Assembly: GCA_938016265.1 (NCBI GenBank)
Contig: CALLWB010000048.1
Span: forward strand, 1 to 46,590
Length of the DNA: 46,590 nt
From: an uncultured Saprospiraceae bacterium
GTDB taxonomy: Bacteria > Bacteroidota > Bacteroidia > Chitinophagales > Saprospiraceae
Reading direction: 5' to 3'
The translations under genes were made by a program, and so were the position numbers. Positions 3,938-46,590 of the stretch are shown here, piece by piece (within the stretch, counting starts at the first letter, position 1; every line of letters starts with the position of its first letter). The notes under the pieces are model-generated. The model did no database searches, was not told where the DNA came from, and saw nothing but the letters and a program-made list of their open reading frames with translations.

Positions 3938-6040
3938 CTACTCATGGACTAATTTCACCATGTGTTTGCCTGATCGAGTGTGGACTTCTATCCAATACAT
4001 CCCAGCTGCATAGGAAGAGAGATCTAAATCATAAGAGAAACTCGTTTTATGAATTTCTTCTAATTGGACGCCTTGTACATTGTAAATCGAAACACCCAGC
4101 ATCTCTTCTTTCCCATCCACAAAAACAGTAATCTGTCCTGAAGAAGGATTGGGTCGAACCATAGCCGTATTCCCATCTACAATATCCAAATTGGAAGAAA
4201 CAATCGGAGTAATCGGGAGAACTATAGACTGAGATGTTAAGGACTCTTCTGTTTCCTGGTTGTCCGCTAAATAGACATCTGAAAAGTCCAGTATCAACTC
4301 CACCGGAGCAAATAAGACGTCATCCTTTATCGTTAAATTAAGCGTTCCAATGATACCGTAGCCAGACTTATTTATCATATCTTTTCTAGTAAAACCTGTT
4401 TGGATCATACCTTCTGCATAAAAGTCCTTTTGCACTGCCAGGGCATTCGTGTTTAGCGAACCAATCCAGGAGGTAGAATAGTCTATCCACACAGAACTAG
4501 GTTCAATCAAACTTTCATCATACTCTATTGTATAGGCAAGGCCATAGGCCGCTGAAACAGGCTCATCGATCGTTCCTAGCAAAATTGGGATTGCCAATGT
4601 TGCCCCTGGTGTTACTACAATTGGTTCGAAATAAATCGGAGGACCTGTTGGTGATGGAGCAAATGCAGCCGGCGTATAAAACAACCCCCAGTTCTGAATT
4701 ATCGCAAGCGTATCATCAGAATTGATAATTCCATTGCCATCAGCATCGAGGTGCTTGTAGTTGACATTGTTGGCAGGCGTTGATTCTGTCCAGTTGTCTG
4801 CTAATTCTCCATCCCAGTTGGTGGTTGCACTTGGTCTTACTGGTCCAGTAGAACCATAACCAATTCCAATATTAAGCAGATCAAAATTATTGACCTTTGC
4901 GCTTTTGTCGGTATCTCCAGGCCAAACACAGTCATCGTCTAAAATTATGTTTACTGTTTCTGTATAGTTTGTTGGTACAGCAGGAAGGTTCCAAGTCAAA
5001 GTATAACTCCCTCCTGATAGATCAGAAAACGTCGCCTGTGGATCTGTATCGTCGGAAATTGCTAGCCCTCCATAGCCGTCCCAAGTACCTGTGAAGTTTA
5101 AGAAGTTTGCTGCGTCTAGCTGCATAGTAGAGCCATCCACAATACAAGTCTCCTGATCAGCCCCAGCCAAATTAACATCACCGACAAATATGTATGCCTT
5201 GGAAAGTTCACAAGTAACACCCGCTATATTGGGGAGGTCAGGATTGCAAACAAGATAGGATATAGAATCAATTCCATTAGTAAAACCAGGGTTAGGAAGA
5301 TAGCTAATACTGTCTTGGCCTATTAATGTTGCGGTTCCATTTGATGGAGGAACTGTTATTGGACTCCATATATATGGGATGCCAATGCCTTCTATATAGT
5401 CATTTACGATTGGCGCAAAAACAACTTCGGTATCAGGTTGGGTGACTACCAAATCATCCTTTGGCTCCACCAAGGTATAGCAGGCATAAAAGTCCAGGCC
5501 AGACAACGTACCTTCTGTTGCAAGAGATAAAACACCGTTAAACTTTTCCGAGATAAATGTTCCAGGAAAGGAGGTCGCTGGTCTCAAGGTAATAAAGGGA
5601 CTTCCCGATCCAATGATGTCAAACTCTACACGACCAATAGGGGTCCATACTGCATCTGAAAGCGGATAACCATCACCACCCGCCATAGAAACATTGTAAG
5701 AAACAAAGGAATCAATTGACCCGGTTAATGTGTGGGGGTCATAAAAAGAAGCAGTACCTCCTTGCTGCACAAAGCCAGATAAACTTAACTCTTGAGTTAT
5801 AACCGGGTTGGCAATCACATCTGGATTGAAAGTGAACCGATAGTTTTGATCGGCCATGTTAAACAACGTACTTGAGCTACTTGCTTTTACTTCAATGTCT
5901 ACAGAAAATTTTCCTATACTGCAACCGTTGCTGAATTCTGCTATTCTTATGTCGTACTGACCGGACTGGGCAAATGCCGAAGAAAGAATACAGAGTGTTG
6001 TTATAATGCTATATATAATTTTGATTAGTGTATTTTTCAT
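3938..6040 (-). CDS. Secreted multidomain protein: Ig-like, dockerin-type and cohesin-like modules with T9SS sorting domain
   Basis: 700 residues. A signal peptide (cleavage expected after S-S-A-F-A, residue 24) is followed by a beta-rich domain at about 28-190 that is homologous to the N-terminus of the upstream gene. A cadherin/Ig-like segment follows at about 195-290 (N-G-T-A-T-L, S-Y-L-P-N-P-G-F). Two calcium-loop repeats of dockerin type I pattern lie at residues 376-387 and 432-443 (D-x-D-x-S/N, then N at position 9 and D at position 12). A cohesin-like domain covers about 468-615 (V-T-P-G-A-T-L-A-I-P-I-L-L-G, then L-A-Y-T-I-E-Y-D). The last ~75 residues are a T9SS type A sorting domain (V-R-P-N-P-S-S-G ... 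A-G-M-Y-W-I-E-V). The protein should be exported by T9SS and anchored or released at the cell surface. Second gene of a two-gene operon, 33 bases after its partner. Function is unknown beyond surface adhesion or assembly by inference. Confidence 0.8.
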   Translation of the reverse strand: MKNTLIKIIYSIITTLCILSSAFAQSGQYDIRIAEFSNGCSIGKFSVDIEVKASSSSTLFNMADQNYRFTFNPDVIANPVITQELSLSGFVQQGGTASFYDPHTLTGSIDSFVSYNVSMAGGDGYPLSDAVWTPIGRVEFDIIGSGSPFITLRPATSFPGTFISEKFNGVLSLATEGTLSGLDFYACYTLVEPKDDLVVTQPDTEVVFAPIVNDYIEGIGIPYIWSPITVPPSNGTATLIGQDSISYLPNPGFTNGIDSISYLVCNPDLPNIAGVTCELSKAYIFVGDVNLAGADQETCIVDGSTMQLDAANFLNFTGTWDGYGGLAISDDTDPQATFSDLSGGSYTLTWNLPAVPTNYTETVNIILDDDCVWPGDTDKSAKVNNFDLLNIGIGYGSTGPVRPSATTNWDGELADNWTESTPANNVNYKHLDADGNGIINSDDTLAIIQNWGLFYTPAAFAPSPTGPPIYFEPIVVTPGATLAIPILLGTIDEPVSAAYGLAYTIEYDESLIEPSSVWIDYSTSWIGSLNTNALAVQKDFYAEGMIQTGFTRKDMINKSGYGIIGTLNLTIKDDVLFAPVELILDFSDVYLADNQETEESLTSQSIVLPITPIVSSNLDIVDGNTAMVRPNPSSGQITVFVDGKEEMLGVSIYNVQGVQLEEIHKTSFSYDLDLSSYAAGMYWIEVHTRSGKHMVKLVHE

Positions 6041-44363: not shown

Positions 44364-44681
44364 GTAAGTGCTTGATTTTCAGTTTGAGGAAATCTATGGT
44401 TTCTTAATTGGACCTGTAAGAACATAGAATATTAACTTGGCAAGACCTACTTTAATTCAATAACTTAGGCTTAGAAGTTTTCAATTCTCCTTATTTGGAG
44501 AATACAGTTAAATGTGGTTTTATCAGATTTAATGCATTATAGTATTCTAAGTATTAGTTGCTACCCAGAATTTAGACAAAAGCCGGTTTTGAATTTTATT
44601 CGAAATCGGCTTTTTTTATCAGAATCCACATTGAACTGATCTTTGGAAACCTTTTTCAAGGAATTGTGGTTTAGACATTAA
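44364..44681 (+). other. Intergenic region between flavin reductase and the Ile-rich frame
   Basis: It holds a hairpin ATTCTCC/GGAGAAT (44484-44503, no T-run) and the intrinsic terminator at 44578-44617. No other gene or RNA is recognised. A sequence GATCTTTG at 44638-44645 is one base off the -7 consensus and could start the leader transcript. Confidence 0.4.
44578..44617 (+). terminator. Intrinsic terminator upstream of the ileS leader
   Basis: AAAAGCCG (44578-44585) pairs with CGGCTTTT (44607-44614), extended by inner A/T pairs, followed by a T-run to 44617. It probably ends the flavin reductase transcript and so isolates the region downstream. Confidence 0.8.
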
Positions 44682-44744
44682 ATGAACAACAAAAATCAAC
44701 ATATCACTATCAGCATTATTATTATAGATTCCCCGGATCTGTGA
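44682..44744 (+). CDS. Candidate Ile-rich leader peptide (attenuator) upstream of ileS
   Basis: ATG to TGA encodes 20 residues: MNNKNQHITISIIIIDSPDL. Six are Ile, and codons 12-15 are ATT-ATT-ATT-ATA in a row. TATCAGC (44708-44714) just before this run pairs perfectly with GCTGATA (44747-44753) just after the stop codon. A ribosome stalled at the Ile codons would cover the first strand and change which downstream hairpin forms. The terminator follows 20 bases after the stop and ileS 143 bases after it. This is the classic arrangement of a ribosome-mediated attenuator, predicted only. Confidence 0.5.
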   Translation: MNNKNQHITISIIIIDSPDL

Positions 44745-44764
44745 TCGCTGATATTCATTTTATG

Positions 44765-44803
44765 AAGCCTTGACAGATTACTGAATTTGTCAAGGCTTTT
44801 TTT
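44765..44803 (+). terminator. Intrinsic terminator in the ileS leader (candidate attenuator)
   Basis: AAGCCTTGACA (44765-44775) and TGTCAAGGCTT (44788-44798) form a perfect 11-bp stem with a 12-base loop, then a T-run. It lies inside the leader, 84 bases before ileS, not at the end of a known gene. TCAAGG at 44656-44661 could pair with its 5' arm. Confidence 0.85.
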
Positions 44804-44859
44804 ATCGAAAAATATTTCATCATAATACCAAGTTAAAACCTGTTTTTTAGGAAAAACCT

Positions 44860-44867
44860 TACCTTTG
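44860..44867 (+). promoter_or_regulatory. -7 box close to ileS
   Basis: TACCTTTG, 20 bases before the ileS ATG and downstream of the terminator. No convincing -33 TTG is seen. If it is used, part of ileS transcription would bypass the attenuator. Confidence 0.45.
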
Positions 44868-44887
44868 CAACCTTAAATAATATCGGA

Positions 44888-46590
44888 ATGGCAAATTACA
44901 AACAATACAAGGGATTAAACCTCCCTGAAATAGACAAAGAACTTCTTGAATACTGGAAAAATAACCAGGTTTTCGAAAAAAGTATGGAAGAGCGAGATGG
45001 TCGTCCTACTTACGTTTTTTATGAAGGACCACCTTCTGCCAACGGGAAACCGGGGATTCACCATGTACTTGCCCGAACGGTAAAAGATGTTTTCTGCCGT
45101 TTTCACACCATGAAAGATAAGCTGGTAGAAAGAAAAGGAGGCTGGGATACCCATGGGTTACCTATAGAACTTGCTGTCGAGAAAGAGTTAGGGATTACTA
45201 AGGAAGATATCGGAAAGTCTATCTCTATAGAAGACTATAATCGTAAGTGTCGGGAAACGGTTATGCGATATAAAGGACAGTGGGACGACATTACACAAAA
45301 AATGGGTTATTGGGTAGACCTTGACAATCCATACATAACTTTTAAAAACGAGTACATTGAATCTGTTTGGAATCTTCTTAAACGGCTATATGACACGGAA
45401 TATCTCTACAAGGGATATTCTGTCCAACCATACTCTCCAGCTGCAGGCACGGGACTAAGTACCGCAGAACTAAACATGCCTGGTTGCTATAAAGATGTTA
45501 AAGACACTAGTGCCGTCGCTCAATTTCGCCCGGTAAGAAACGAACAATCTTCTTTCTTGTTTGATGATGAAAAGGAGGATGTTTGCATCATCGCATGGAC
45601 AACAACTCCCTGGACACTACCATCAAACACTGCATTGGCCGTAGGCAAAAAAATAACTTATGTAAAGGTGAAAACCTTCAACACTTATACGCATAAACCT
45701 ATAAGCGTAGTACTCGCTAAGGATCTGCAAAACAAATGGTTCAAGCCAGAATTAGCAGAATTGTCGATGGCAGATTACGAAGCAGGCGCGAAAAAAATCC
45801 CGTACGAGGTCGTCAAAGAATTTCAAGGAGCAGAGTTGATTGGTGTGCGGTATGAGCAATTATTGCCTTATGCACAGCCAGAAGACGGGGATGCATTTTT
45901 GGTGATACATGGTGATTTTGTTTCTACCAGCGACGGTACGGGTATCGTGCACATTGCACCTTCTTTTGGAGCAGATGATATGTTTGTTGCGAAACAAAAT
46001 GGTATCGGGTCATTGACCATGGTAGACAAGCAAGGGAAATTTGTGGAGGAGATGGGCGAATTTGCAGGACGATATGTCAAAAACTACAAGGACGATCCGA
46101 ATTATGTCAATGCAGATATCGACATTTCGGTCAAGTTGAAAATAGACAACAAGGCGTTTAATGTCCAAAAATATAGTCACAACTATCCACATTGCTGGCG
46201 TACAGACAAGCCGATCCTGTATTATCCATTGGATAGCTGGTTTGTGCGTGCTACGAAAGCAAAAGCCCGAATGGCAGAATTGAACAAAACCATCAATTGG
46301 AAGCCTTCGCATACTGGCGAGAAACGGTTTGGCAATTGGTTGGAAAATCTACAAGATTGGAATCTTTCCCGCTCCCGGTATTGGGGTATCCCTTTGCCAA
46401 TCTGGCGCACGGAAGATGGCGAAGTAGAAAAATGTATTGGCTCGCTGGAAGATTTGAAGGCGGAAGTCGCCAAGTCGGTGGCTGCGGGGCATATGGACGC
46501 TCCTCTGGCAGATGATTTTGATTTGCACCGCCCATTCATTGATGGCGTTATCTTGACTGCAGATGATGGTCGGCCGATGAAGCGGGAGCT
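44888..46590 (+). CDS. ileS: Isoleucyl-tRNA synthetase, 3'-truncated
   Basis: The frame runs from ATG 44888 without a stop to the window end, so about 567 of an expected ~1100 residues are visible. The sequence is clear class I synthetase: E-G-P-P-S-A-N-G-K-P-G-I-H-H-V-L at 46-61 is the HIGH region in the G-I-H-H form, then G-W-D-T-H-G-L-P near 85. The editing (CP1) domain includes A-W-T-T-T-P-W-T-L-P-S-N-T near 235. The pattern resembles the eukaryote-like type of IleRS common in Bacteroidota. It charges tRNA(Ile). The N-terminal start is supported by good alignment of A-N-Y-K-Q-Y-K-G-L. Regulation may involve the upstream Ile-rich leader. Confidence 0.95.
   Translation, partial: MANYKQYKGLNLPEIDKELLEYWKNNQVFEKSMEERDGRPTYVFYEGPPSANGKPGIHHVLARTVKDVFCRFHTMKDKLVERKGGWDTHGLPIELAVEKELGITKEDIGKSISIEDYNRKCRETVMRYKGQWDDITQKMGYWVDLDNPYITFKNEYIESVWNLLKRLYDTEYLYKGYSVQPYSPAAGTGLSTAELNMPGCYKDVKDTSAVAQFRPVRNEQSSFLFDDEKEDVCIIAWTTTPWTLPSNTALAVGKKITYVKVKTFNTYTHKPISVVLAKDLQNKWFKPELAELSMADYEAGAKKIPYEVVKEFQGAELIGVRYEQLLPYAQPEDGDAFLVIHGDFVSTSDGTGIVHIAPSFGADDMFVAKQNGIGSLTMVDKQGKFVEEMGEFAGRYVKNYKDDPNYVNADIDISVKLKIDNKAFNVQKYSHNYPHCWRTDKPILYYPLDSWFVRATKAKARMAELNKTINWKPSHTGEKRFGNWLENLQDWNLSRSRYWGIPLPIWRTEDGEVEKCIGSLEDLKAEVAKSVAAGHMDAPLADDFDLHRPFIDGVILTADDGRPMKRE

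Follow-up and report, generated by a model that had tools for sequence, protein, structure and literature searches.

Comparative sequence evidence for a leader-peptide attenuator of the isoleucyl-tRNA synthetase gene ileS in the Saprospiraceae

The window analysed here is a stretch of 46,590 nucleotides from an uncultured Saprospiraceae bacterium of the phylum Bacteroidota (GenBank assembly GCA_938016265.1, contig CALLWB010000048.1), near the end of which the isoleucyl-tRNA synthetase gene ileS begins. The gene is preceded by a short open reading frame (ORF) rich in isoleucine codons, by a set of alternative RNA helices and by an intrinsic terminator, and by all comparative measures applied to the sequences these form a real, conserved ribosome-mediated attenuator of ileS. 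We consider it very probable that ileS is controlled by ribosome-mediated transcription attenuation. A preliminary description, made from the letters of the window alone, had proposed such control as a possibility. This proposal is now supported, in that conservation and covariation of the frame, its Ile run, the terminator and the alternative helices extend over many genera.

All of the features of the window described here lie on the forward (+) strand. The leader ORF (44682..44744) encodes the peptide MNNKNQHITISIIIIDSPDL; its 20 codons include six for Ile, four of them consecutive (ATT ATT ATT ATA, 44715-44726), as the preliminary description had read them and as the ORF translation and the relatives bear out. 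Region 1 (TATCAGC, 44708..44714), which overlaps the Ile-Ser codons and was identified by folding and by covariation in relatives, has its partner in region 2 (GCTGATA, 44747..44753), identified by folding; the 7-bp helix that had been proposed between them is perfect. Inside this 1:2 structure the predicted fold has an inner hairpin (44721..44745) in which 44721-44731 pair with 44735-44745. The two strands of an antiterminator were recognized by covariation in relatives: GATCTGT (44736..44742), whose last base opens the leader stop codon, and ACAGATT (44773..44779), which lies within the 5' arm of the terminator. Here the preliminary description, which had seen no convincing antiterminator helix, was mistaken, as this helix is present in the window and is conserved and covarying in relatives. 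The intrinsic terminator (44765..44803) has arms at 44765-44779 and 44784-44798 and a T-run at 44797-44803, and is evident both from folding and from covariation; the terminator with T-run noted earlier is thus there, but its helix is longer than the 11 bp then given, with 15 pairs of which one is G-T. Compared with 200 dinucleotide shuffles, the segment 44676-44806 as a whole has a z-score of -8.3, at a folding energy of -40.1 kcal/mol. The ORF of ileS (44888..46588), whose start was placed correctly in the earlier reading, matches TIGR00392 with 581 bits over the 566 amino acids present, a score that falls short of the cut-off for the complete protein (621), since the gene runs past the end of the window.

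Judging from the relatives, the leader ORF is a genuine reading frame, in which Ile is kept while the third codon positions drift. A typical core is NIIISIIII, and peptides such as MNTQHLNIIISIIIIHDYGNL, MNCQSKNIIISIIIIQSERICRS (from Aureispira sp. CCB-QB1) and MKFYSNIIISIIIIPRLPDNL are found upstream of ileS in relatives, each followed by a terminator. At least five Ile in eight residues are present in 93 of 102 distinct cores, a set that excludes the window itself; seven further cores have four Ile, and the remaining two, both from the locus L170, have none or one in eight residues. Over the 102 cores Ile makes up 31.8% of the residues and Val 0.8%. Codon usage was analysed in 64 leaders anchored on the motif I{2,4}[SND]I{2,5}, which places Ile at positions -2, -1, +1 and +2 by construction; at positions -3 and +3, which are free of the search motif, Ile is found in 55 and 60 of the 64 leaders, respectively. 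ATT, ATC and ATA are all used, with a third-position variation of 0.8-1.4 bits. The Ser between the Ile runs is encoded by AGC in 53 of the 64, and this codon sits within the 1:2 helix. The leader of the window (ITISIIII) does not contain the anchoring motif and was therefore outside the codon analysis. Outside the Ile core the peptide drifts among relatives. By the standard set in the preliminary description, the proposal would have failed had relatives kept the hairpin without the frame or its Ile codons; the opposite was found.

A short Ile-rich frame might arise by chance in AT-rich DNA beside an ordinary terminator, ATT and ATA codons being cheap in such DNA, but the comparative data refute this explanation, to which we give practically no credence. 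Only 0.4% of 2040 shuffled segments reach five Ile in eight residues. A terminator-like hairpin was found within 500 nt upstream in 34 of 105 distinct ileS-upstream regions, and just before the hairpin a short ORF with at least five Ile in eight residues is present in 18 of these 34. Among 2002 control windows from the same loci, which span both strands and genes and are not matched to intergenic composition, 227 have a hairpin and an Ile-rich ORF accompanies it in 2. Direct sensing of tRNA in the manner of a T-box, rather than by a translating ribosome, is also highly improbable. T-boxes do control ileS elsewhere, as described in the sections seen of a study of Actinobacteria (PMC1262725). 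What is conserved at the present locus is an open frame whose third codon positions drift, and a scan of the window with Rfam gave no family at the gathering cut-off, the T-box and amino-acid leader families included.

The leader is widespread and is linked to ileS. A covariance model, R1, was built on an alignment (A1) of 15 hand-picked leaders and matches 151 of 398 sampled Saprospiraceae genomes at E<=1e-3; this search used stricter filters, by which weak matches were lost. In the analysis of loci, 27 opposite-strand echoes of the terminator were excluded by hand and by E-value. The loci examined are those of the better-scoring 88 of the 151 genomes. In 83 of the 88, representing 38 genera, ileS lies within 2 kb downstream of the attenuator. 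In the other five (G016, G145, G206, G297 and G324) no ileS was found in the available downstream stretch, which amounts to 16-707 bases in four of them and to 195 and 1997 bases at the two places in G324. The source genome (G000) has one good match, with 85 bits; the runner-up, at 34 bits, comes from this terminator read on its opposite strand. No leader was seen at the three stronger of five other PF00133 places in this genome (L269-L271). A BLAST search with the leader DNA alone was largely uninformative.

As far as sequence comparison can tell, the antiterminator is mutually exclusive with the terminator and is kept by compensatory change in relatives. In alignment A3, which holds 100 distinct sequences, the terminator alone is 97.3% paired, and the 1:2 helix and terminator together are 93.4% paired, with two-sided changes at 16 of 20 pairs. 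A3 leans toward the structure of R1 because R1 was built on A1. The antiterminator pairing was absent from the model, though its sequence was included. In A3 this pairing reaches 93.7%, with two-sided changes at six of the seven pairs and in 36 cells, compared with 9.7 cells in shuffles; when the partner strand was slid, pairing was at most 42.3%. The 3' strand doubles as a terminator arm and is hence constrained anyway, whereas the 5' strand is not. Seven divergent leaders (L006, L007, L031, L038, L095, L097 and L105) were excluded from the covariation counts based on A1, and L007 and L038 were also absent from the step in which terminator echoes were excluded by E-value. Complementarity between leader end and terminator arm was also compared with dinucleotide shuffles in 22 ileS-anchored leaders, which were not chosen for the antiterminator and include leaders without the AATCTGT motif as well as divergent ones; the combined Fisher p is 6e-8. 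Some divergent leaders have complementary pairs made of other letters, for example CTACAAT:ATTGTAG in L006 and TGCAATC:GATTGCA in L031, which are singly not significant.

The position of the antiterminator strand relative to the codons is that expected if a ribosome controls its availability. ATCTG or GTCTG occurs near the leader end in 45 of the 64 leaders; the motif begins 5 nt ahead of the stop codon in 30 of these 45, and its start lies a median of 25 nt past the first Ile codon behind Ser. The motif would therefore be covered by a ribosome at the stop codon and left exposed by a stall early in the Ile run. Folding was carried out on the RNA available before synthesis of the terminator 3' arm, with an assumed ribosome footprint, for the 41 leaders, among the 102, that contain ATCTG or GTCTG and a complementary partner. 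With a stalled ribosome the antiterminator is predicted at P>0.5 in 41 of 41. The leader of the window is not among these 41 and was folded separately, with RNAs of three end points, which give the ranges that follow. When the A site is at the Ile codons 44715, 44718 or 44721 the predicted antiterminator probability is 0.92-0.98; with the A site at 44709 it is 0.91-0.97, and at 44724 it is 0.56-0.69. Without a ribosome the corresponding prediction is 0.00, and the 1:2 helix has a probability of 0.98. The predicted default of the window is therefore termination, and in the model the inner hairpin 44721..44745 would conceal the antiterminator strand when the ribosome is absent.

From these parts we infer the following course of events. 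Transcription would start upstream of 44682 and a ribosome would follow on the leader. When charged Ile-tRNA is ample, the ribosome would reach the stop codon at 44742 and cover GATCTGT, so that the terminator would form, with transcription stopping near 44803. With uncharged Ile-tRNA the ribosome would stall on the Ile run, cover region 1 and open the 1:2 hairpin; the freed GATCTGT could then pair with ACAGATT before the terminator 3' arm is made, and polymerase would continue into ileS. If the ribosome were absent, the 1:2 hairpin would sequester GATCTGT, and termination would be the default. Such a circuit would be one of negative feedback, because a rise in isoleucyl-tRNA synthetase would restore charging. 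Basal expression probably comes from a second promoter immediately before ileS.

Several observations weigh against this interpretation or restrict its reach. The two parts of the 1:2 helix are 86.0 and 79.5% paired, looser than the other helices. The slid antiterminator controls still show two-sided changes at up to 5 pairs and in up to 19 cells, and more weight is therefore due to the paired fraction and to the covariation score. Taken locus by locus, the test of the antiterminator gives p<0.05 in 7 of the 22 leaders, with p=0.108 for the window. In the folding of the 41 leaders, the antiterminator has P>0.5 in 14 in the absence of a ribosome, the 1:2 hairpin not preventing it, and the outcome for a ribosome at the stop codon follows by construction from the masking. 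A genome of the same genus as the source (G002, locus L083) lacks both an R1 match and a terminator in the 500 nt ahead of ileS, and 247 of the 398 sampled family genomes have no R1 match at the threshold; the device is therefore dispensable.

The main limit on the role of the attenuator in governing ileS is a promoter element downstream of the terminator. TAnnTTTG is the Bacteroidota-type -7 consensus. The window has an exact copy, TACCTTTG (P2, 44860..44867), between the terminator and ileS, where the preliminary description had placed a -7 box and feared a bypass of the terminator. That doubt stands, for the box is itself conserved: of the 76 loci with at most 300 nt from terminator to ileS, 62 have an exact TAnnTTTG in this interval, where single-base shuffles predict 4.5. 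Expression of ileS may therefore do without read-through. In the 80 nt ahead of the leader an exact TAnnTTTG is found in 54 of 102 relatives, against 4.4 expected. No exact copy is present upstream of the leader in the window, which has in this place a one-mismatch sequence, GATCTTTG (P1, 44638..44645), a weak candidate for a -7 box. One might thus suppose that the attenuator works but is of minor weight, with ileS driven mainly by the downstream promoter and the leader adding little save in severe starvation. The conserved downstream box, at 44860 in the window, speaks for this, as does L083, which is without the leader and retains TACCTTTG before ileS; against it, a leader, antiterminator and terminator that are conserved and covary imply selection on read-through, and the consensus occurs upstream of the leader too. 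We regard a minor role as possible but distinctly the less probable outcome; it is compatible with attenuation and limits its importance only. Returning to attenuation as a working control of ileS, the gene is likely to have a basal promoter close by and an attenuated one further upstream, the attenuator probably adding a starvation-inducible output on top of basal expression.

Leaders of this kind are found at genes of isoleucine and valine synthesis as well. In a sample of the wider phylum R1 matched 27 of 395 genomes at E<=0.01, including the source genome, and all the others scored below 50 bits. One locus was read for each of the other 26. Four of these loci (L231, L232, L235 and L242), from other families of Bacteroidota, have genuine Ile-rich leaders with terminators, in every case ahead of a gene resembling ilvE. 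Family models applied to the N-terminal parts confirmed ilvE at all four; the next ORF is ilvD-like in all four, with confirmation by a model, again on the N-terminal part, in L231 only. No ileS leader from outside the family was present among the 26 loci read, the remaining 22 being plain-terminator-like or ambiguous. Within the family, leaders with both Ile and Val codons and with terminators lie upstream of PF00920 (ilvD-type) genes at 6 of 19 loci (L273, L277, L281, L282, L284 and L286), and L273 and L282 have two attenuators in tandem. At the sequence level, then, the leader codons match the pathway, being Ile almost alone at ileS and Ile plus Val at the ilv genes.

These data bear on another account, in which the stretch between two terminators yields a free small RNA or a small functional peptide and has no part in controlling ileS. 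Terminator-like hairpins do flank it on both sides, the upstream one (44578..44617, inverted repeat I2, with 17-nt arms that are 88% complementary, followed by a T-run) probably closing the transcription unit before it, and the fold between them is very stable. The linkage to ileS in 83 of the 88 genomes with examined loci, the covariation of an antiterminator that would be meaningful for read-through alone, the drift of the peptide outside its Ile core, the like leaders before ilv genes with matching amino acids and the lack of any Rfam family at the cut-off in the window all make this account very unlikely, and we retain attenuation of ileS. Among the sub-threshold Rfam matches, Thr_leader (13.6 of 55 bits) falls at 44551-44619, outside the leader. 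MicF (27.2 of 79 bits) was taken as a chance match, and so was S15-Flavobacteria (28.5 of 46.5 bits), which at 44860-44890 reflects merely the -7 box and the context of the ileS start.

PF00920 has no match in the source genome, which is rated 100% complete, and this suggests an auxotrophy for branched-chain amino acids. Loss of isoleucine synthesis was considered as the reason for having an ileS leader and was rejected, since in the 398 genomes of the family leader and PF00920 tend to occur together and not to exclude each other: 120 genomes have both, 31 the leader only, 142 PF00920 only and 105 neither. This census ignores kinship, and not every one of the 151 matches in it was verified to be at ileS.

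In 13 genomes of five genera, genes lie between the attenuator and ileS (L170, L171, L172, L003/L134, L139, L173, L182, L191, L196, L202, L205, L206 and L208); L226, L228 and L229, with gaps of 419-477 nt and no convincing gene, were left out of this count. The Pfam families represented are 23S_rRNA_IVP, Abi_C, SIR2, DUF5131, DUF922, Fic, PIN and Uma2, together with the pairs DUF433 with DUF5615, UPF0175 with DUF3368 and VapB with PIN; DUF6308 occurs below its cut-off only. The Pfam scan gave no match for L182, L191, the minus-strand gene of L003 and one gene each of L205 and L208. L170 (genome G374, contig C13) has five leader-terminator copies at 4492, 3673, 2848, 1638 and 774 on the minus strand, which alternate with two Uma2-like genes (so assigned by likeness to the scanned gene of L171), UPF0175 with DUF3368, and VapB with PIN, all of them ahead of ileS. 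Two of the five copies have no short Ile-rich frame (in one of them the frame continues through the terminator), and this speaks for decay. Repeats within L003, L170, L171 and L172 are mostly 156-227 bp long and cover the leader; they stop 0-11 nt past the terminator end of the model, or 51 nt past it in L172. A longer repeat in L170, of 947 bp, includes the Uma2-like gene. In genus g83 the inserted gene starts after the T-run and ends beside the ileS start codon, and gene-free sites are found in G338 (L147) and G365 (L200) of the same genus and in G263 (L136) of g4. By eye, no recombinase stands out among the listed neighbours. These loci could be taken to mean that promoter, leader and terminator form a portable control cassette, which has been duplicated upstream of ileS and has captured, on its downstream side, genes of toxin-antitoxin systems and of the Fic, Uma2, Abi_C and SIR2 families, an idea that we put forward as speculative and probably wrong. 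If it were true, toxin-antitoxin and defence-like genes would be under the control of isoleucyl-tRNA charging, and a depletion of charged tRNA(Ile), whether through starvation or through an attack on tRNA by phage or toxin, would induce the captured genes together with ileS.

The mechanism proposed here is well known from other genes. In E. coli, ilvGMEDA has a leader peptide with codons for the sensed amino acids, alternative hairpins and a terminator, and pheST is a synthetase gene controlled by leader codons for its own amino acid. The pheST leader thus shares with the present one the type of gene and the own-amino-acid codons, but senses Phe rather than Ile and belongs to another phylum. 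Another ribosome-mediated attenuator of a branched-chain operon is that of C. glutamicum ilvBNC (PMC11857589). The present leader has the same kinds of components as that of ilvGMEDA, but the gene is that of a tRNA synthetase, the codons are nearly Ile only and the organisms are Bacteroidota. In the passages available of PMC2965389, histidine leader peptides are described before hisS paralogs of Bacillus, again a leader peptide before a gene of a synthetase family, though in Firmicutes and for His; the words 'Bacteroid' and 'ileS' were not found in the main text of that paper. The T-boxes upstream of actinobacterial ileS, proposed in the portion seen of PMC1262725 to act on translation initiation, have in common with our case an RNA control tied to tRNA(Ile), and differ in being T-boxes with no leader peptide. 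Closer in phylogeny, the passages seen of PMC9723704 report that in F. psychrophilum the operons for amino-acid biosynthesis show strong signs of leader-peptide attenuation and that synthetase mRNAs have structured 5' untranslated regions (UTRs), and those of PMC7366714 report leader-like short ORFs in 5' UTRs of B. thetaiotaomicron; no ileS leader was found in these main-text passages. The E. coli topAI-yjhQ toxin-antitoxin operon, controlled by an upstream ORF and, by the title of PMC12121999, sensing ribosome-targeting antibiotics, resembles some of our gene-bearing loci in having a leader ORF before such an operon and differs in its host and in sensing antibiotics. Among the matches listed from open PMC full text, none could be recognized, by title and start of abstract, as describing leader-peptide attenuation of ileS. 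The mechanism is known, and within the literature searched the gene and the clade are apparently new.

With this attenuator, ileS would join the few tRNA synthetase genes that have a leader peptide of this type, and the covariation over 100 distinct sequences points to classic attenuation in a phylum for which the literature searched holds general mentions only. The covariance model can be used for annotation. The contrast between Ile-only leaders at ileS and leaders with Ile and Val at the ilv genes makes cognate specificity testable, and the ileS locus allows the contributions of a basal and an attenuated promoter to be dissected. From the gene-bearing loci, finally, arises the question whether control by tRNA charging is being extended to accessory genes.

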